Source of the DNA: Rhodovarius sp.
GTDB taxonomy: Bacteria > Pseudomonadota > Alphaproteobacteria > Acetobacterales > Acetobacteraceae
Length of the DNA stretch: 34,381 nt
Direction: 5' to 3'
Assembly: GCA_025057055.1 (NCBI GenBank)
Contig: JANWYF010000082.1
Span: 1-34,381, forward strand
How positions within the stretch are numbered: the stretch's first letter is position 1; each line of letters opens with the position of its first letter. The notes under the pieces were generated by a model that worked only from the letters and a program-made list of their open reading frames with translations, ran no database searches and was not told the origin of the DNA. The translations under genes and the position numbers were made by a program. Below, in pieces: positions 16,017-25,688 of this stretch.

Positions 16017-18125
16017 TCAGGCCGGGCGCAGTTCGAGCGAAATCAGCCGCACCCAGGGCAGAGTCTCGGGCAGATCCATCTCCGGTTCGGCCAAAAGCCG
16101 AATGGAGTGCGCCCCGGCCGCCAGCGGCAGGCGCAGCATGGCATAGCCGCGGGGGGCGATCTCGACCCCGCGGTCGAGCGCCGACACCCGCACCCGTCGC
16201 TCCGCCGCCAGCGCGAGGCAGAGCGTGCCGGCCACCGGTGCCGCCAGGTGCAGCCACGCCTGCCTCTCGGCCATCGCCGCCCCGCGCGGACCGGGCCGCA
16301 TCCAACCTTCGGCGAGGATCATGCGCAGCGGATGGGCGATGGGATCGGCGGGCCAGGGCCGCGCATCGGGCCCCAAGATCGGGGAGGGGGCGAAACGCAG
16401 GCCGGGGGGCAAGACGGGATGGACCATCGCCGCCGCCTCGCCTTCGGGCGGGCCCAGGCGCAGGCAGGCCTGGAGGATGTCCTGCGCCACCTCCGGCCAG
16501 CGGCGCGCCCTGAAGCCAGCGCGCAGCCGCGCCTCGGCCTCTTCGAGGAAGCCGGGTTCGCCGAGCAGGCGGCGGAAGAGCGGCAGCGCCGCCTCCACAT
16601 CCTCGGGGTCGAAAAAGAGGGCATAGCCCTCCCCCACTTCCGGCATGGAGCCGCGGTTCGAGGCGACGCAGAGCTTGCCGCGCGCCAGGCTCTCCCCGAT
16701 CGGCAGGCCCCAGCCCTCGATCAGGCTGGGCTGTACCGTGAAGAGGCAGGCGGCGTAGAGGGTTTCGATCTCCCCATCCGACAAGCCCGCAATCACCTGC
16801 ACCAGCCCGTCGAGCCCATCCGCTTCGGCCAGGGCGTATTCCAGCTCCAGCAGGTTCCAGCCGAGCTTGCCGGCCAGCACGAGCGGCGGCACCGCCACCC
16901 CTTCGGCGCGCAGCCGGGCCCAGAGGCGCACCAGGAAGGCGTGGTTCTTGCGCGCCTCCACCGTGCCGACCGAGAGCACGAAGCGCTGCCCGCGCAGGGC
17001 AGCTATGGCCGGCGTCCAGCACTCCTGCTGGCTGCTGCCGGCGGCGAGAGGGGGGCGCATCTCATGGGCCAGCGGCACGGTGATGACCGGGCGCTCCGGC
17101 AGGCCATGCGCCGCGATGGTCTGGCGGATGCTGCGTTCGGTGTGGCGGCTGTTGGCCACCGCGCCGTGCAGGCCGAGCAGCTCCTCGCCGAGGCAGATCG
17201 TGAACTCCCGCACCAGTTCGGGGTGGCAGAGTTCGGGGTGGGAGAGCGGGATCAGATCGTGGATCAGCGCGAGGCTGACCGCCCCGGACCGGCGCAGCGC
17301 GAGATGCAGCACCGGGTTGCCCTGATGCATCCAGAAGCCGCCGGGCTGGAGGTAGCGCAGGCCGGGCCGCGGCATGACGGGGGCGGCGCCGCGCAACAGG
17401 CGGTCCAGCAGCCGGTGCATCTCGGGCGTGTTGCCGCGCCCCGCCTCGGCCAGCTTCAGCACCTGCTGCAGCGGCGCGCGCGGCAGCGCCCAGATGCGCT
17501 GATCCCAGGGGCGGGTCAGCACGCAGGTGGCGCGCCCCGGCTCGGCCAGGGCAAGTTCGGCCAGCGCCGCGATGACCCGCTGGATGCCCGAGAGGGTCCG
17601 GTTGTGCCGGACGTATTCCACCAGATCCGCCACGTCGATCCAGACCGGCGCATCGCCCGGCGCGGCATCGCCGGCCGGCCGCATGCCCGGCAGGCGCAGC
17701 CGGCGCACCGCCGCGCGCCCGCCGCGCTCGGCCGCCTCGGCCAGCCGCTGGGCGGCCAGCCGGTGCTGGCCATGGTCGAGCAGGAAGGTGCCATGCACGA
17801 AGCGGTGGTAGGGGTCCTGCGGGTCGCGGGCGATGGCGCGCACATAGGCGGCTTCGGCCTCCGCCTCCCGGCCCAGGGCGCGCAGGCAATGGCCCATCAT
17901 GCTCCAGCCCATGGCATGGTCGGGCCGGCGCTCGAGATAGGCCTCGTAGAGGGCCAAGGCCTCCCGGAACCGCCCGGCGCGCCGCAGCCGATCGGCCCGC
18001 CGGCGCAGCGCCGCCGCTTGCTGCCAGAAGCGCCGCTGCAGCATCCGCCGCAGGAAGAGCCGGGGCGAGGTCATGCCGCGCGGCCCCATCCAGCGGCGCA
18101 GCAGGCGCCCGATCCGATCAAGCAT
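16017..18125 (-). CDS. TPR - GT4 glycosyltransferase - C-terminal beta module fusion (third copy)
   Basis: A 702-residue protein, last of three tandem paralogues. A basic N-terminus precedes two to three TPR-like helices (about 40-135; RPDHAMGWSMMGHCLRALG). A linker leads to a GT-B fold of family GT4: IDVADLVEYV and SGIQRV (179-184) open the acceptor half, ALIHDLIPL (about 286-294) follows, then FVLSVGTVEARKN (382-394). The donor-sugar EX7E motif is E470-GWGLPIG-E478. The C-terminal 100 residues contain AEGW (605-608) and alternating hydrophobic strands. No signal peptide or clear membrane helix, so it is probably cytoplasmic. The start overlaps the preceding copy by 8 nt (ATGCTTGA). The sugar and acceptor are unknown. 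Confidence 0.85.
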   Translation of the reverse strand: MLDRIGRLLRRWMGPRGMTSPRLFLRRMLQRRFWQQAAALRRRADRLRRAGRFREALALYEAYLERRPDHAMGWSMMGHCLRALGREAEAEAAYVRAIARDPQDPYHRFVHGTFLLDHGQHRLAAQRLAEAAERGGRAAVRRLRLPGMRPAGDAAPGDAPVWIDVADLVEYVRHNRTLSGIQRVIAALAELALAEPGRATCVLTRPWDQRIWALPRAPLQQVLKLAEAGRGNTPEMHRLLDRLLRGAAPVMPRPGLRYLQPGGFWMHQGNPVLHLALRRSGAVSLALIHDLIPLSHPELCHPELVREFTICLGEELLGLHGAVANSRHTERSIRQTIAAHGLPERPVITVPLAHEMRPPLAAGSSQQECWTPAIAALRGQRFVLSVGTVEARKNHAFLVRLWARLRAEGVAVPPLVLAGKLGWNLLELEYALAEADGLDGLVQVIAGLSDGEIETLYAACLFTVQPSLIEGWGLPIGESLARGKLCVASNRGSMPEVGEGYALFFDPEDVEAALPLFRRLLGEPGFLEEAEARLRAGFRARRWPEVAQDILQACLRLGPPEGEAAAMVHPVLPPGLRFAPSPILGPDARPWPADPIAHPLRMILAEGWMRPGPRGAAMAERQAWLHLAAPVAGTLCLALAAERRVRVSALDRGVEIAPRGYAMLRLPLAAGAHSIRLLAEPEMDLPETLPWVRLISLELRPA

Positions 18126-20190
18126 CCGGCTGAAATTCCAGCGCGATCAGCCACAGGCCGGGGCGCGCATCGGGCGGCGGGGCGGCAGGCCCATCCTGAC
18201 CGACCGGTTCGGCGCTGACGGCGAAGGAGACCGGCCCCGCCCGCAGCGGCAGCTCGAGCAACCCATAGCCTTCGGCCGCAAGGGCGAGGCGCTGCCCGCC
18301 GGCGGACACGACCAGGGCAGGGCCTGCGCGCAGCGCGAGCCGAAGGCGCCCGGGCACCGGTGCCTCGGCATGGACCCAGCCCTGCCGGCCGATGAGGTGT
18401 GAACCGCGCGGGCCGGGGCCGGACCAGCCCTCGGCCAGGGCAAGGCGCAGCGGATGGCGGAAGAGATCCAGGCCGGTCTCCACCCGGTCCGGCCCGGTCC
18501 AGGGCGAGGGGGCATAGGCCCCGCCGGCGGCAGGCAGCGGCGGCCGCAGCGGTTCTCCGCCGGCCACGGGCGGCAGGCCGGCCAGGCTGTCGAGCATGCG
18601 CCGTGCCACCTCCGGCCAGTGGCGGGGGCGGAAGCCCTCGCGCAGCCGCGCCTCGGCCTCTGCCAGGAAGCCCGGCTCGGCGAGCAGGCGGCGAAAGAGC
18701 GGCAGCGCCGCCTCCACATCCTCGGGGTCGATGTAGAAGCAGAACTCCCCGCCCACCTCCGGCAGGGCGCCGCGGGCCGAGGCGACGCAGATCCGCCCAT
18801 GCGCCAGGCTCTCGCCCACGGGCAGGCCCCAGCCTTCCGTGAAAGAGGGAAAGACGGTGAACAGGCACGCGTCGTAGAGGGCCTCGAGCTCCCCGTCGGA
18901 GAGGCTCGAGAAGACGCGCACCCGCCCGCCGACCGAGTTGGTCTCGGCCATGGCGCGCTCGAAGGCGCTGGTCTGCCAGCCGAGCTTGCCCACGATCGCA
19001 AGCGGCGGCGGCTCCAGCCCCTCCTCGAGCAGGCGCTGCCAGAGCCGCACCAGGAAGGCCTGGTTCTTGCGCGATTCGATCGTGCCCACGCAGAGCACGA
19101 AGCGCTGCCCCCTGAGCGGGGCGATGCGTTCGCTCCAGCGCGGGGTGGCCAGACCCTCCGGCCGCAGCGCATGGGCCAGCGGCACGGGCAGGACGGGCCG
19201 CGGCGCCAGCCCGTGGCGGGCCATGAAATCGCGCACCGTCTGCGCCGTGTGCCGGCTGTTGGCCAGGATCACATCGGCGGCGAACAGCGCCTCGCCCAGC
19301 ACGGCCGAGAATTCGCGCACCAGATCGGGCACGCAGACCTCAGGGTGGGTGATCGGTATCAGGTCATGGATCAGCACCGCGATCCCCATGCCGGCGCGCT
19401 TGAGGGTGGCGAGCAGCGGGGCATTGCCGCCGCCAATCCAGAAGGCGCCGGCCTGCAGGAGCCAGCCCCCTGCGACCGGTGCCACGGGCCGGGCGCTGCG
19501 GCGCAGCGCGTCGAGCAGGGCCACCGTCTCGGCGCTGCCGCCCTGCCCCGAACCCAGCAGGGCGAGCAGCCGCTCCTGCAGCCGGCGCGACAGGGCGCGG
19601 GGTTCGGGGTTCCAGGGGTCGGTCAGCACGCAATGGGCCAGTTCGGGGCGGCGCAACGCCTCGGCCATCAGCTCCGCCTGGACGCGCTGGATGCCCGAGA
19701 GGTTGCGGTTATGCGCGGCATAGATCAGCAGGTCAGAGACATCGATGAAGATGCGCGCGCCCGAGGGGGTGGCATCATCCGGATCGGGCTCCGGCAGGGC
19801 AGCGAGTTCGCGCTCCGCCGCCGCACCAGCCCCCGCGGCCACGGCGCGCGCCAGCCATTCCCGCGCTTCGGCCAGGCGGCCAAGGCGCAGGAGGTGGCTG
19901 CCGCGGCAATGCAGGATGTAGGGGTCGGTGGGCGAGCGCTCAGTGGCAGTGGCGAAGGCCTCCGCCGCCTCCTCCCCCCGGCCCTGGGCGGCCAGGACAT
20001 GGCCAAGCATGGTCCAGGCCATGCCATGGTCGGGCCGCAGCAGGAGATAGGCGCGGTAGAAGGCCTCGGCTTCCTCAGGCCGGCCGGCGCGGCGCAGCCG
20101 ATCGGCGCGGGCGCGAAGCCAGGCGCTGCGCCACCGCCAGGGCTTGCGCGCCAGCACGATGCGCGCGGTGCGGGCGATGCGGCTGAGCAT
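18118..20190 (-). CDS. TPR - GT4 glycosyltransferase - C-terminal beta module fusion (second copy)
   Basis: A 690-residue paralogue of both neighbours, with the same order of parts. TPR-like helices span about 25-120 (RPDHGMAWTMLGHVLAAQG). The GT4 domain begins at about 147 (IDVSDLLIYA), with SGIQRV at 165-170, VLIHDLIPITHPE at about 272-284, CVGTIESRKN, and EX7E at E452-GWGLPVG-E460. The C-terminal module contains AEGW (586-589) followed by a degenerate S-G-P-G-P-R-G motif. By eye it is closer to the third copy than to the first in linker and C-terminal spacing; this was not measured. Its active-site motifs are complete, so it is probably an active enzyme. Confidence 0.85.
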   Translation of the reverse strand: MLSRIARTARIVLARKPWRWRSAWLRARADRLRRAGRPEEAEAFYRAYLLLRPDHGMAWTMLGHVLAAQGRGEEAAEAFATATERSPTDPYILHCRGSHLLRLGRLAEAREWLARAVAAGAGAAAERELAALPEPDPDDATPSGARIFIDVSDLLIYAAHNRNLSGIQRVQAELMAEALRRPELAHCVLTDPWNPEPRALSRRLQERLLALLGSGQGGSAETVALLDALRRSARPVAPVAGGWLLQAGAFWIGGGNAPLLATLKRAGMGIAVLIHDLIPITHPEVCVPDLVREFSAVLGEALFAADVILANSRHTAQTVRDFMARHGLAPRPVLPVPLAHALRPEGLATPRWSERIAPLRGQRFVLCVGTIESRKNQAFLVRLWQRLLEEGLEPPPLAIVGKLGWQTSAFERAMAETNSVGGRVRVFSSLSDGELEALYDACLFTVFPSFTEGWGLPVGESLAHGRICVASARGALPEVGGEFCFYIDPEDVEAALPLFRRLLAEPGFLAEAEARLREGFRPRHWPEVARRMLDSLAGLPPVAGGEPLRPPLPAAGGAYAPSPWTGPDRVETGLDLFRHPLRLALAEGWSGPGPRGSHLIGRQGWVHAEAPVPGRLRLALRAGPALVVSAGGQRLALAAEGYGLLELPLRAGPVSFAVSAEPVGQDGPAAPPPDARPGLWLIALEFQPDA

Positions 20191-20259
20191 GACGGCGCCC
20201 CTCTTACGCGGCGAGGAGGGCCGCCGCCAGGGTAGCCGGGCGCAGCACCGCCGCCATCC

Positions 20260-22389
20260 TCACCCCTCCGCCGCTTCGGCGGCAAAGCGAATACGGCGCA
20301 GGCGCGCATCGCCCTCCAGGGTGACGGGCAGACGGTGCACCCCCGCGGCCAGAGGAAGAGAGATCTCCCCCTCCTCACCCGCGGCCAAGGCAAGGCGGCA
20401 TCCGCCTGCCGCCATCGCCCCGCCCCGCAACGCCCGCGCCTGCAGGCTGATGCGCCCGGGGATGGCAGTGCGAAAGAGCAGGGGCGCCTCCGGGCCGGGC
20501 CGAGGGGCGGCGCCCTCTTCCTCCACCGGCTGGCCCCAGCCCTCGGCCAGCATCAGCCGCAGAGGCGGGCGCAGCACCCCTGGCCCCTGCGCCGGAACAG
20601 GTTCGAGCGCTGCGGGCAGCACCCGCCAATCGGTGCCGGGCGGCAGCAGCGGCCCTGACCAGGGGCGCGGTGCGAGGGGCGGCAGGGCTTCGATCGCGGC
20701 GGCCATCTCTGCGGCCACCTCGGCCCAGCGCCGCGGGCGGAAACCCGCGCGCAGCCGCGCCTCGAGCTCGGTGCGCCAGGGCGCATCGGTGATCAGGCGG
20801 CGAAAGAGCGGCAGCGCCGCCTCCAGGTCCTCGGGGTCGACATGCAGGGCGAAACCTGCCCCGACCTCGGGCAGCGAGCCGCGATCGGAAGCGATGCAGA
20901 TCTTGCCATGGGCCAGGCTCTCGCCCACCGGCAGGCCCCAGCCCTCGCCGAAGGAGGGAAAGGCGGTGAAGAGGCAGCGCTGGTAGAGGGCGGCGAGCTC
21001 GCCGTCGGACAGTTTCGGGACATGGCGCACGAGCCCCCCGGCGGCGCGGGTCTCGCGCATCGCCTCCTGCCAGGCTCCGCTGCGCCAGCCGGGCTTGCCC
21101 GCGATGACGAGCAGCGGCATCGCCACCCCCTCCTGCCGCAGCCTCTCCCAGATGCGCACCAGGAAGGCGTGGTTCTTGCGGGACTCCACGGTGCCCACGC
21201 TGAGCACGAAGGGGCGGCTGCCCAGGCGGCGGACCGTGCGGGAGAGGACGGGCGGGGCGGCCAGCGCCTCGCGCGCAAGCGGCACCGGCAGGATGGGCAG
21301 CTGCGGCAGCCCTGCGCGGGTGAGGGCGGCGCGCACCTCCTCGGCCGTGTGGCCGCTGTTGGCCAGGATCGCATCCGCCGCGGCCAGCTCCTCCGGCAAG
21401 ACGGCCGCGAACTCCCGCACCAGGGCGGGCACGCAATGTTCGGGCAGGGTGAGGGGGATCAGGTCGTGCAGCAGCAGCACGTCGCGCATGCCCGCCCGCT
21501 TGAGTGCGGCATGCAGGGGCGGATTGCCGCCGCCGGTCCAGAAGCCGCCCGGGCGCAGCAGCGCGGCCCCGGCGGCCGGCGCCACTTCCCGCGCCGTCAG
21601 GTAGAGCCGTCCGATCAGGCTCAGCGCCTCTTCCCCGCCGCCGCGGGCGGCCTCGGCCAGGGCCAGAAGCTCCGCCACCGCCGACCGCGACAGGGCCCAG
21701 ATGCGCCCGTCCCAGGGGCGGAGCAGCACCGGCGCCATCTGTTCGGGATGGTCCATCGCATGCCGGATCAGGGCCAGCACCACGCGCTGGATGCCGGTCA
21801 CCGCCGGGTTGTGAAGCAGAAAGATCAGCGCATCGCTGGCATCGACCCAGATCCGGGCCGGGCCGGGGTCGGCATCGGCGGCCGGGTCGGCACCCGGGAT
21901 CGCCTGCAGCAGCGCCGCGCGCGCGACATGGCTGCCCCCGCCCAGCGCGGCGGCGCGGGCAAAGAGCGCTCCGGCGCGCTCCTCATCGCCCAGGCGCCGA
22001 TGGAAGGTCGCGGCGGTGACCAGGACGAAGGGGTCCTCGGGAGCAAGGGCGAGCGCGCGCTCGTAAGCCTCGGCCGCCTCGGCGCTGCGGCTGGCCATGC
22101 GCAGGCAGAAGGCGAGCATGAGCCAAGCCATGGCGTGGTCGGGCCGGGCTGCCAGATAGCGCCGATAGAGGACGATCGCCTCCTCATAGCGTTCGGCGCG
22201 GCGCAGCCGGTCGGCCTCGGCGCGCAGCCTGGCGCGGGCGCGCTCCCAGGGCCGGCGCGCCCACCACTGCTCGAGCATCCGCCCGACCGACCAGCCATAG
22301 ACCTCGAAGCCGCGCGCGATTTCGGCCGGCAGCCAGCGGGTGAGGAGCGGGCGCAGGCCGCGCGGCACGGGCAGGGGCGGCAGGCGCAT
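20260..22389 (-). CDS. TPR - GT4 glycosyltransferase - C-terminal beta module fusion (first copy)
   Basis: A 709-residue first copy of the array. It has about 37 extra N-terminal residues relative to the other copies, beginning MRLPPLPVPRGL; an in-frame ATG at codon 38 (MLEQWW) matches where they start. TPR-like helices span about 55-150. GT4 motifs: WVDASDALIFLL, TGIQRV (198-203), LLLHDLIPL, SVGTVESRKN and EX7E (E482-GWGLPVG-E490). The C-terminal module has AEGW (615-618), then an acidic insert where the other copies have PGPRG, so it is the most divergent there. It begins 9 nt after the histidine phosphatase gene, without an obvious Shine-Dalgarno, which suggests one operon. Substrate unknown. 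Confidence 0.85.
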   Translation of the reverse strand: MRLPPLPVPRGLRPLLTRWLPAEIARGFEVYGWSVGRMLEQWWARRPWERARARLRAEADRLRRAERYEEAIVLYRRYLAARPDHAMAWLMLAFCLRMASRSAEAAEAYERALALAPEDPFVLVTAATFHRRLGDEERAGALFARAAALGGGSHVARAALLQAIPGADPAADADPGPARIWVDASDALIFLLHNPAVTGIQRVVLALIRHAMDHPEQMAPVLLRPWDGRIWALSRSAVAELLALAEAARGGGEEALSLIGRLYLTAREVAPAAGAALLRPGGFWTGGGNPPLHAALKRAGMRDVLLLHDLIPLTLPEHCVPALVREFAAVLPEELAAADAILANSGHTAEEVRAALTRAGLPQLPILPVPLAREALAAPPVLSRTVRRLGSRPFVLSVGTVESRKNHAFLVRIWERLRQEGVAMPLLVIAGKPGWRSGAWQEAMRETRAAGGLVRHVPKLSDGELAALYQRCLFTAFPSFGEGWGLPVGESLAHGKICIASDRGSLPEVGAGFALHVDPEDLEAALPLFRRLITDAPWRTELEARLRAGFRPRRWAEVAAEMAAAIEALPPLAPRPWSGPLLPPGTDWRVLPAALEPVPAQGPGVLRPPLRLMLAEGWGQPVEEEGAAPRPGPEAPLLFRTAIPGRISLQARALRGGAMAAGGCRLALAAGEEGEISLPLAAGVHRLPVTLEGDARLRRIRFAAEAAEG

Positions 22390-22398
22390 CGGTGCCGG

Positions 22399-22974
22399 TC
22401 AGGCCAGCGGCTCGAGGGGCAGCGCTGTCATCCGCCAAGGCTGGCCGGGACCGGCCGGGGGTTCGACCGCCAGCGGCAGGGCATTGGGCGTGCGGATATT
22501 GGCCGGCAGCCCGGCCGCATGGCGGAAGGCGCGCCAGAAGGCGCCATGGGCCACCACCAGCACCGGCCCCGGCAGGGCGGTGGCGCGGTTGATCGCCGCC
22601 ACCGCCCGCGCCGTGAGGGCGGCGAAGGTCTCGGCCCCGCGCGGGGTGAAGCGGCCGGCGATCCAGTCATCATACCAGTCGGCCATCGGCTGGCCTTCCT
22701 GTTCGCCGAAGGCCACCTCGCGCAGGTCCGGGTCGATGGAAACCGGCAGGCCGAGCACCCGCCCCACCGTCTCGGCCGTGGCGTGGGCGCGCGCGAGGGG
22801 GGAGGTCACGATGGTCGCGATGCCGCGGCCGATCAGGGCCCGGGCGGCGCGTTCGGCCTGCAGCCGGCCGACGGCGTTGAGCGGGATGTCGGTCGTGCCC
22901 TGGGAGAGGCCGCGCGCGTTCCAGTCGGTCTCTCCGTGGCGGAGGAACCAGAAGGGCACCGGGTTGATCACCAT
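22399..22974 (-). CDS. Histidine phosphatase family protein (phosphoglycerate-mutase-like)
   Basis: A 191-residue small phosphatase with the catalytic RHGETDWN motif near the N-terminus (nucleophile His in LRHGE), a second arginine in SPLARAHATAE, the general acid region REVAFGEQEGQ and the second catalytic His in VVAHGAFWRA. The family includes cofactor-dependent phosphoglycerate mutases, alpha-ribazole phosphatases and sugar phosphatases; the length suits a phosphatase. A GGAGGGG Shine-Dalgarno precedes the ATG at 22974. Its end is 9 nt from the first TPR-glycosyltransferase, so a sugar-phosphate substrate is a reasonable guess but not shown. Confidence 0.88.
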   Translation of the reverse strand: MVINPVPFWFLRHGETDWNARGLSQGTTDIPLNAVGRLQAERAARALIGRGIATIVTSPLARAHATAETVGRVLGLPVSIDPDLREVAFGEQEGQPMADWYDDWIAGRFTPRGAETFAALTARAVAAINRATALPGPVLVVAHGAFWRAFRHAAGLPANIRTPNALPLAVEPPAGPGQPWRMTALPLEPLA

Positions 22975-23034: not shown

Positions 23035-23649
23035 TCAGGCCGCCTCGCGCGCCAGCGCCCGCTGCACCGCCGGGCGGTCGAGCATGCGCTGGTGATGGGC
23101 GGCCAGCGCCCCGGGCATCTCGATCCCGGCGCGGCGGCACCATTGCTCGATGAAGAAGAGCGCCGGATCGGCCACCGTATAGACCTCCCCGAAGGCCCAG
23201 GGGCCCGCGATCTGGCGCGCCAGCAGCTCCACATATTCCTGGGCGGCGGCCTTGCCGTCGGCGATCACGCGGGCCTCATCCTCCTTGTCGCGGGCGAAGC
23301 GGGAGGGGCGGAACTGCCGGGTGAAGCCCATCGGGTGGACGGTGCCGGTGATGTATTCGAGCAGGGAGAGGCAGGCGATCTCCCCATCGAGACCTGCCGG
23401 CAGCAGCCCTGCCTCCGGGTTGCTGCGCGCCAGATAGAAGCTGATCGCCGGGTATTCGGTGACCACCCGCCCATCCTCCAGGGCCAGGGCAGGCACCTTC
23501 GCCTTGGGATTGATCGCCCGGTATTCGGGCGTCAGATGCGCCCCCTCCCGCGTCGAGATGCGCACCGCCTCGAAGGGCTTGCCGATCTCCTCGAGCAGGA
23601 CATGGATGCCAAGGCTGCACGCCCCCGGCGAGTAGTAGAGCTTCATCAT
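23035..23649 (-). CDS. Glutathione S-transferase, beta-class-like
   Basis: A 204-residue GST. The thioredoxin-like N-terminal domain opens MKLYYSPGACSLGIHVLLEE, where SPGACS carries the beta-class cysteine. The cis-proline is in KVPAL, followed by the glutathione-binding TEYPAISFYLA. The all-helical C-terminal domain follows. GGAGGAGG lies 8 nt before a double ATG (23649 or 23646). Enzymes of this class conjugate or reduce electrophiles with glutathione. It lies upstream of the phosphatase and glycosyltransferase genes on the same strand with a 60-nt gap, so co-transcription is possible. Confidence 0.92.
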   Translation of the reverse strand: MMKLYYSPGACSLGIHVLLEEIGKPFEAVRISTREGAHLTPEYRAINPKAKVPALALEDGRVVTEYPAISFYLARSNPEAGLLPAGLDGEIACLSLLEYITGTVHPMGFTRQFRPSRFARDKEDEARVIADGKAAAQEYVELLARQIAGPWAFGEVYTVADPALFFIEQWCRRAGIEMPGALAAHHQRMLDRPAVQRALAREAA

Positions 23650-23737: not shown

Positions 23738-24670
23738 TCAGTCGAACAGAGAGGAGACCGAGCTCTCCTCGCTGATGCGGCGCATCGCCTCGGCCAGGAG
23801 TGGGGCGATCGGGATCTGGCGGATATTGGGCGCCACCCGCACCGCTTCGGTCGCGGCGATGCTGTCGGTGACCGTCATCGCCTCGAGCGGCGCCGCACCC
23901 ACCCGCGCCACCGCCCCGCCTGAGAAGACGCCATGCGTGACATAGGCGGAGACGCTGCGCGCCCCGCTTCTGATCAGCGCCTCGGCCGCGTTGCAGTGGG
24001 TGCCGCCCGAGTCGACGATGTCATCGACCAGGATGCAGTCGCGCCCGCGCACATCGCCGATGACGTTCATCACCTCCGACACCCCGGCTTGCGGCCGGCG
24101 CTTGTCGATGATGGCCAGATCGGTGTTGAGGCGGGTGGCAATGGCGCGCGCCCGGACCACGCCGCCCACATCGGGGCTGACCACCATGATGTCGCGCCCC
24201 GCATAGCGCGCCTTGATGTCCTGCACGAAGAGCGGTGCGGCGAAGAGGTTATCGACCGGGATGTCGAAGAAGCCCTGGATCTGCCCCGCATGCAGATCAA
24301 GGGTGAGCACCCTATCCGCCCCCGCCTCGGTGATCAGATTGGCCACCAGCTTGGCCGAGATCGGCGTACGCGGGCCGGTTTTGCGATCCTGCCGCGCATA
24401 GCCGAAATAGGGGATCACCGCCGTCACCCGCCGCGCGCTGGCACGACGCAGCGCATCGAGGGTGATCAGCAGCTCCATCAGGTGATCATTGGCCGGGGCG
24501 CTGGTCGATTGGATGACGAAGACGTCTTCGCCGCGGATGTTCTCGTGGAACTCCACGAAGATCTCCATGTCCGCAAAGCGGCGGATGGAGCAGTTGACCA
24601 GCGGCAGTCCCAGCACGTCCGCCACGGCCTGGGCAAGTGGCCGGTTGCTGTTGCAGGCGACGATTTTCAT
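23738..24670 (-). CDS. prs: Ribose-phosphate pyrophosphokinase (PRPP synthetase)
   Basis: A 310-residue class I Prs that makes PRPP from ribose 5-phosphate and ATP for purine, pyrimidine, NAD, His and Trp synthesis. Key parts: the [18 protein letters not shown] stretch, the flexible-loop motif [10 protein letters not shown], a ribose-5-phosphate loop in [12 protein letters not shown] (215-226) and [14 protein letters not shown]. The start [13 protein letters not shown] at 24670 gives the standard length; longer upstream readings run into the lipoprotein gene. AGGAG lies 12 nt before the ATG, directly abutting a 6-bp hairpin. It follows the lipoprotein gene by 40 nt. Confidence 0.97.
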
Positions 24671-24687
24671 GGGCCGCAAACGCTCCT

Positions 24688-24702
24688 GGCCGAAAGTCGG
24701 CC
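24688..24702 (-). promoter_or_regulatory. prs: Hairpin abutting the prs ribosome-binding site
   Basis: A perfect GGCCGA-CTT-TCGGCC stem-loop lies between the lipoprotein stop and the prs start. The AGGAG Shine-Dalgarno begins at the next base after the stem. It could insulate or tune prs translation, or stabilise a processed 5' end. No known riboswitch class is recognised. Confidence 0.4.
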
Positions 24703-24710
24703 GTGTCCTA

Positions 24711-25688
24711 TCAACGCGGTGGGGGCGTGGCAACCGCGGGGGCGGCGGTCGCCTCGAGCAGCCCGCCGCCCGGGCCGGGTGCGGCGAGGGGGGCCGAGGC
24801 GGGATAAGAGGATGCCTCCGCATTGCGGATGATCTGGACCACGCCCCCGCTCGCCTGCTCTGCCGCCACATAGGCGATATCGCCCCAGAAGCGGTCGAGC
24901 CGCCCCGCCGGCACCGCCTCGACCTGCACCACCCGGCCGAGCTCGAGCCCGTCGCGGCGGGTCACGATCCACTGCAGCTCGACCACCTGCTGCCCCGCCC
25001 GCGGCGGGGAGAGCGTGACCTCCGCCGTCAGGCCGAACTCGGCCTCGGCCGCGGCCTCCTGCACAAGGAAGCCTTGGGCGGCCAGGAACTCCCGCATTCG
25101 GGCGGGGAGCGCCGCCGCCCCATCCCCCGGGGCGCCGCGGATCGGCAGCAGGCGAATCCGGCGCGGACCGCCGCCTGCCACCGGCATGGCCAGTCGCGCC
25201 CCTTGCGCGGCGGCGAGCAGGCGCTCCACCCCCTCCGCCGCTGCGGCGGCCAGGCCGGGGGGTAGCGCCGGGCCCGCCATGCGCCAGGCCGCCTCGGGCA
25301 GGGGTGGGCCGGCGAAGCTGCCCTGCAGCGCGCCATCGGCATCGAGCAGCGAAAACCGCGCGCGCCGCCGGCCGCCCTCGGCCTCGATCACGGTCGCCAG
25401 CCGCCAATCGAGCGGCAAGGGCGCGGCGGTGGCCACGGCAGGCAGGTCACGCTGCTGCAGCGCGGCGGCCAGCGCCTCGGCCAGGGCGAGCGAGGCGTCG
25501 GCACCCGGCACCAGGCCCTCGGCCGGCAGCACGGCAAGGCGGATCGCCAGCGGCATTGCGAGCTGCCGCGCCGACCGGCCGGGATTGCCCCAGAAGGGTC
25601 GCGGCACATCGCCGCAGCCGGCCAGCCCCGCGGCCAGAGTGGCGAGCAGCGCACGCCGGCCCGCCCCCGCCTCAGACGATGAGCGCAC
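24711..25688 (-). CDS. Conserved-type putative lipoprotein, function unknown
   Basis: A 325-residue protein with a lipoprotein signal: basic GRR, hydrophobic [11 protein letters not shown] and lipobox L-A-G-C (Cys at residue 25), then a mature start [11 protein letters not shown]. The rest alternates short strands and helices, with a W-rich stretch ([27 protein letters not shown]). No catalytic motif is recognised. The C-terminus is a low-complexity A/P tail. The start is a GTG at 25688, overlapping the end of a 23-codon ORF by 17 nt. Its place between pgeF and prs suggests an envelope gene travelling with the lgt/pgeF cluster. I do not recognise the family. Confidence 0.75.

Follow-up and report, generated by a model that had tools for sequence, protein, structure and literature searches.

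Three adjacent TPR-GT4 glycosyltransferase genes as one lineage's expansion of a recognisable alphaproteobacterial enzyme type

Why should a bacterial genome carry three long, related glycosyltransferase genes in a row, with no polysaccharide gene beside them? The question is raised by a stretch of 34,381 nucleotides from a Rhodovarius sp. (G000:C217, 73% GC), hereafter the window, in which the three genes, designated a, b and c, follow a histidine phosphatase gene. The genes concerned are the following:

20260..22389, (-) strand: copy a, TPR + GT4 + beta module, 709 aa (ORF; Pfam TPR and Glycos_transf_1; own ortholog group)
18118..20190, (-) strand: copy b, TPR + GT4 + beta module, 690 aa (ORF; Pfam; model at pLDDT 93)
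16017..18125, (-) strand: copy c, TPR + GT4 + beta module, 702 aa (ORF; Pfam; groups with the copies of G002, G006 and G008)
22399..22974, (-) strand: histidine phosphatase, 9 nt upstream of a (Pfam His_Phos_1, E 1.6e-41; family-wide orthologs)
23035-23649, (-) strand: GST-like gene (Pfam; same neighbour of the phosphatase in other genera)
23738-24871, (-) strand: ribose-phosphate pyrophosphokinase gene, prs (Pfam; same neighbour in other genera)

An initial annotation, made from the letters alone, had described three paralogues of 709, 690 and 702 residues with a common order of TPR, GT4 and C-terminal module, and this description is borne out by the reading frames and by BLASTP, Pfam and profile searches. 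Pairwise identities in BLASTP are 45.1, 50.4 and 50.5% over 649-667 columns (E-values of 4e-153, 1e-160 and 0, in the same order), a likeness that, judged from these alignments, is far beyond chance. Glycos_transf_1 scores 61.9, 67.7 and 68.2 bits in the three copies against a Pfam cut-off of 26.4, and Pfam TPR models pass their cut-off in all of them. The catalytic motifs said to be retained are indeed present in each copy, with an intact EX7E (EGWGLPVGE in a and b, EGWGLPIGE in c) and GIQRV. Re-measurement returned the same 9-nt gap between the phosphatase and a, and the same 8-nt overlap of the start of c with the end of b; 69 nt separate a from b. The three genes are probably co-transcribed behind the phosphatase, in agreement with the proposed single operon. 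A scan for sigma-70 consensus sites between 15900 and 23800 returned no promoter-like site, a result that is weakly informative at 73% GC. As had been stated, no adjoining polymerase, flippase or sugar-nucleotide gene was named by Pfam among the 26 ORFs scanned in the window.

Copy b was modelled by AlphaFold from a 58-row alignment with b as first row, at a mean pLDDT of 93 and with all three parts visible; this model supersedes one from an alignment of the three window copies only (a as first row), which at a pLDDT of 56 was too poor. The domains were delimited as follows, the C-terminal modules with a profile built from rows that include a, b and c themselves:

19798..20142, (-) strand: TPR helices of copy b, residues 17-131 (model; Pfam TPR matches)
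18571..19758, (-) strand: GT-B domain of copy b, about residues 145-540 (model; MshA structural match)
20275..20640, (-) strand: C-terminal beta module of a (profile match, E 1.3e-28)
18121..18507, (-) strand: C-terminal beta module of b, strands at residues 589-688 (profile, E 1.0e-35; model)
16020..16388, (-) strand: C-terminal beta module of c (profile match, E 1.8e-41)

The C-terminal modules are thus homologous in all three copies, and not unrelated, a possibility that the initial annotation had itself raised against its reading. The best structural match of the GT-B domain of b is MshA (3c4q_A, Z 28.5, 337 aligned, rmsd 3.6), in a comparison that covered almost only residues 143-543, and the domain also resembles WaaG (Z 24.2). 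The window enzymes share the EX7E motif and, as modelled for b, the GT-B fold of retaining GT4 enzymes such as MshA, BshA, PimB' and WaaG, at Z 24-28 to solved members, but differ from MshA-type enzymes in having an added N-terminal TPR domain and a C-terminal beta module. The latter, searched with 15 members, has no Pfam match at E<=1, and its profile finds nothing below E 0.16 among the sequences of solved structures. It is carried by at least 20 of 150 sampled genomes of the family, as judged by profile with up to 24 candidates scored per genome, and spans several alphaproteobacterial lineages, once or twice behind GT4 domains. Two modules follow the glycosyltransferase in a row in L084, L089 and L225; the last (L225:3817-9876, G091) holds an ORF of 2019 aa composed of TPR, GT4 and two consecutive beta modules. 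No description of the TPR-GT4-beta family was found in the open-licence PMC literature, and the available part of PMC8156966 contains nothing about it.

The enzyme is present in all nine genomes examined from the genus at E<=1e-90, as a single copy in five (G001, G003, G004, G005 and G007) and as three copies in four (G000, G002, G006 and G008); the single copy of G003 is a lower bound because this genome is incomplete (69%), and G006 is 82% complete. Copies a and c form well-supported ortholog groups in two trees and b forms one with supports of 87/91 in one tree and 96/89 in the other, each group having one member per three-copy species. These groups are confined to one clade, and the four three-copy species form a single clade (support 100) in a tree of KpsE and KpsD. 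Support for the order of the deeper splits is weak. These sequence trees are most simply explained by a single expansion within one branch of the genus: the three copies look like descendants of a single ancestral enzyme that was duplicated there, and the trio does not represent an ancient system.

Copies a and b adjoin in all four three-copy species, whereas c stands beside b in the window only and lies elsewhere in the other three. A gene judged dapB-like by eye precedes c in G002 and G006, and the G008 contig stops at that point; in the window genome, the genes flanking c in G002 sit on separate contigs, the dapB-like gene on C79 and the other on C96. A search of related genomes for the tandem array, which the initial annotation had called for, accordingly does not support a conserved array, since five of nine genomes show one copy and the row of three is seen in the window alone. 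The idea that three related enzymes are kept together survives in part: three paralogues are kept in four species, but not as a tandem row outside the window. Elsewhere, Novacetimonas maltaceti carries a tandem of two very similar 712-aa TPR-GT4 genes (L090:7966-12506), and a row of three such genes, which belong to a separate clade, occurs in L069 (G014).

For sequence outside the window, ORF calls come from a GC-position heuristic that leaves start sites and small genes uncertain. With that proviso, copy b in G002 and G008 (L055:1637-3211 and L064:1200-2774) is without TPR: it starts at the GT domain, with a 4-nt overlap across the stop of a, and a itself has a shortened beta module in these species. 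A frameshift within the GT domain, either real or an assembly error, breaks the c copy of G002 (L056:2145-4162) in two. Between G002 and G008, dN/dS is 0.22 for a (400 codons), 0.17 for b (524 codons), and 0.27 and 0.15 for two parts of c; KpsD and KpsE of the same pair give 0.08 and 0.09. In this pair, a, b and c are constrained yet evolve faster than KpsD and KpsE, a pattern that suits surface-glycan enzymes. The view that these are not decaying copies is supported by the purifying selection seen in this pair, with the frameshifted c of G002, a possible assembly error, as its one exception; single copies do occur in close relatives, but the extra copies of the others are not plainly inactive. 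Fixed columns specific to the a, b or c ortholog groups are few, six in the N-terminal and four in the C-terminal half of the GT domain and none in the beta module, the TPR region having too few comparable rows for such a count, and they did not reveal different donors or acceptors.

What these enzymes build is suggested mostly by their relatives. Among the best 80 of 572 confirmed stretches, 23 loci hold an ORF with TPR and GT4, and 22 of these were scanned for Kps genes (L084 was left out). KpsM- and KpsE-like matches lie in the fetched stretch at nine of the 22 loci (L082, L083, L085, L091, L092, L101, L103, L107 and L112), which represent about five lineages, one Kps reference set having been taken from L092 itself; 13 loci have no KpsM match, several of them being cut by contig ends. 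None of 13 control loci gave KpsM- and KpsE-like matches, although these controls, being housekeeping phosphatase loci and mostly shorter, demonstrate no more than that the search is not matching indiscriminately. Poly_export and the ATPase are found in L101, and Poly_export, ABC2_membrane and the ATPase pass the Pfam cut-off in L092, whereas the NCBIfam KpsE and KpsM matches in L092, L209 (G007) and L082 all fall below the curated cut-offs. In the midpoint-rooted tree, L082, one of two L083 members and L085 fall on the side of the window genes, and the Belnapia/Roseicella and Erythrobacter groups on the opposite side; the clade of the window genes is long-stemmed, and the Kps-linked relatives fall outside it. 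Because relatives adjoin Kps-type export genes in several lineages, the proposal of an undescribed system was too strong: the three genes are one lineage's expansion of a recognisable alphaproteobacterial glycosyltransferase type rather than a new system. In the Porphyrobacter locus L092, a 472-aa KpsT-like ATPase ORF (L092:5567-6985) also scores against the TPR profile, and this export ATPase may carry a TPR of its own.

The genus itself carries genes of this kind. Poly_export is above cut-off in all nine genomes, which also have ABC2_membrane, a broad family, and two Capsule_synth genes each. In seven of nine genomes, one of the two Capsule_synth genes shares a contig with kpsD; the other is KpsS-like in G007 (NCBIfam, below cut-off) and has a BioF-like ORF close by in the six loci inspected, the models having been run on G007 only. 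The KpsM and KpsE names tested in G007 are likewise below the NCBIfam cut-offs. In the nine kps stretches of the genus (7.7-20 kb), no called ORF matches the GT profile of the TPR-GT4 family at E<=1e-3, so the enzymes that build the glycan may lie elsewhere. Neither the window genes nor the single-copy genes of the genus have a polysaccharide gene beside them or lie in or beside a kps cluster.

Rhizobial rkp-type K-antigen loci are a known comparison for gene sets that combine polyketide synthase, BioF-like and Kps genes. They are resembled by L082, whose single stretch combines a polyketide synthase and a BioF-like enzyme with a GT4, a TPR-GT4, KpsE-, KpsM- and again KpsE-like genes and an export ATPase. 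A comparable likeness is seen in G003 and G007, where a related glycosyltransferase lies near the KpsS-like gene: L235:4154-16142 (G007) and L236:5209-17250 (G003) each show a glycosyltransferase gene in a row with a very long ORF that looks PKS-like by eye and with BioF-like, formyltransferase-like and KpsS-like genes, models having been run on G007 only. Unlike in rkp-type loci, the three transferases of the window genus sit away from such clusters.

We hold with moderate confidence that a, b and c are cytoplasmic retaining GT4 enzymes for the synthesis of a surface polysaccharide, whose export would most likely depend on a Kps-type ABC system with its genes at another place in the genome. 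The GT4 sequence and fold with intact EX7E argue for a surface-polysaccharide glycosyltransferase; the Kps matches at nine of 22 relative loci against none of 13 controls, and the Poly_export and Capsule_synth genes of all nine genomes, point to Kps export. A precedent for TPR in a capsule role is offered by group 2 capsule polymerases such as CpsD of Actinobacillus pleuropneumoniae, a TagF-like multi-enzyme polymerase of about 1100-1300 residues according to the available part of PMC11666461. As described there, CpsD resembles the window enzymes in the fusion of TPR to a GT-B enzyme and in the Kps export genes found with their relatives and in their genus; the window enzymes, however, have a single GT4 domain and match no TagF-type (glycerophosphotransferase) Pfam model at E<=0.1. 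Several observations weigh against this explanation: no polysaccharide gene lies beside the window genes or the genus singletons, the Kps link comes from relatives outside their long-stemmed clade, 13 of 22 relative loci (several cut by contig ends) are without a KpsM match, the NCBIfam KpsM, KpsE and KpsS matches sit below curated cut-offs, one Kps reference set came from a matching locus, and in G003 and G007 a related glycosyltransferase lies near the KpsS-like gene.

In this polysaccharide model, an ancestral single enzyme behind the histidine phosphatase was duplicated in one branch of the genus, giving three diverged copies that probably form different linkages or use different acceptors within the same glycan. 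In each, the GT-B domain would transfer sugar from a nucleotide donor, the TPR domain would dock the enzyme to its acceptor or a partner protein, and the beta module might help to hold the glycan or stabilise the enzyme. Together, the scattered TPR-GT4 enzymes of the genus would build the Kps-exported glycan; we infer the polysaccharide role, the capsule as product and the division of labour from these combined clues.

The alternative with the strongest claim, although it appears rather unlikely, is that a, b and c act on LPS (core or O-chain) or another glycan that does not depend on Kps. It would be consistent with the resemblance of the GT-B domain to WaaG, with the lack of linkage between the window genes and kps genes, and with a long glycosyltransferase gene pair of the same genome next to an SbmA/BacA-type ABC transporter; the Kps linkage of nine of the 22 TPR-GT4 relative loci, among the best 80 of 572, speaks against it. 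The pair (L065:862-7190, G000:C216) consists of ORFs of 1041 and 1197 aa; the first has two glycosyltransferase stretches, and in the tree the other branches as sister to the window family.

A bolder version of the polysaccharide model is doubtful. It would make a, b and c non-interchangeable members of one TPR-docked glycan assembly complex derived from a single enzyme, in which a and b would be translationally coupled and share a TPR, c would perform a third step, and the beta module would bind glycan or govern chain length as a hitherto undescribed domain of GT4 enzymes. The simplest form of a TPR-scaffolded complex of three, as suggested in the initial annotation, is weakened by the absence of TPR from b in G002 and G008: this speaks against every subunit needing a TPR of its own, although a and b could still have one in common. 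Serial action on one acceptor and a three-enzyme complex both stand as guesses.

A role of the three as protein-modifying enzymes is improbable in turn. GT41 is the OGT family, and O-GlcNAc transferases rank first in Foldseek with the model of b, as expected for a composite of TPR and GT-B; the top bacterial ones, however, superpose poorly (TM-scores of 0.32-0.35, rmsd near 17 A), and the window sequences are GT4 and match no GT41 model at E<=0.1 in Pfam. The same domain order is found in FlmG, the flagellin O-glycosyltransferase of Caulobacter, which combines an N-terminal TPR with a C-terminal GT-B domain as far as the available part of PMC7591256 describes it. If a, b and c were FlmG-like cytoplasmic protein O-glycosyltransferases, their TPR would bind a protein such as flagellin and the GT domain would glycosylate it; compared by domain order with the enzyme described there, the window enzymes, which are GT4, have an extra beta module. 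Flagellin genes are present in all nine genomes of the genus, but this is not decisive, as they occur in 29 of the 36 genomes searched, many of which are without the window-gene clade, and L219, one of the three flagellin-type matches in the window genome, has no GT profile match.

The genes around the three transferases lead back to how the presumed polysaccharide enzymes came to stand where they do. An ortholog of the phosphatase was found in 20 of the 22 family genomes searched and in 22 of 36 in all; it was not found in G002 and G008, where contigs end nearby. At the phosphatase loci of other genera, some of them cut by contig ends, no such transferase lies nearby (13 of 13), and prs is near the phosphatase in 11 of 13. 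Within the genus, the transferase lies directly behind the phosphatase in all seven genomes in which the latter was found, and does so even in G004 and G005, where neither prs nor GST is close by. Probably, then, the transferase was placed behind a housekeeping gene and has since remained with it; this lasting pairing hints at co-expression without establishing a joint function. Treating the neighbours and the transferases as one system was considered and rejected: the phosphatase, GST and prs are an old row of the family, and gyrB (named from sequence), recF and dnaN lie on the opposite side of the three genes. In another genus, L177 (G011:C39) has the phosphatase and GST close to gyrB, recF and dnaN, with the blocks of the window in a different order. 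A true functional pair, in which the phosphatase would, for example, dephosphorylate a sugar or lipid product, would fit its position directly upstream in seven of seven genus genomes, even where prs and GST are absent nearby, but is very improbable given a phosphatase that occurs in 20 of 22 family genomes and is without such a transferase nearby at all 13 other-genus loci.

The genus thus offers a natural contrast between one-copy and three-copy species, which bears on the way duplicated genes add steps to a glycan pathway and on whether the TPR of polysaccharide transferases works in cis or in trans. It also draws attention to a beta module that is without a Pfam match, lies behind GT4 domains in several alphaproteobacterial lineages, and has a role that is directly testable.
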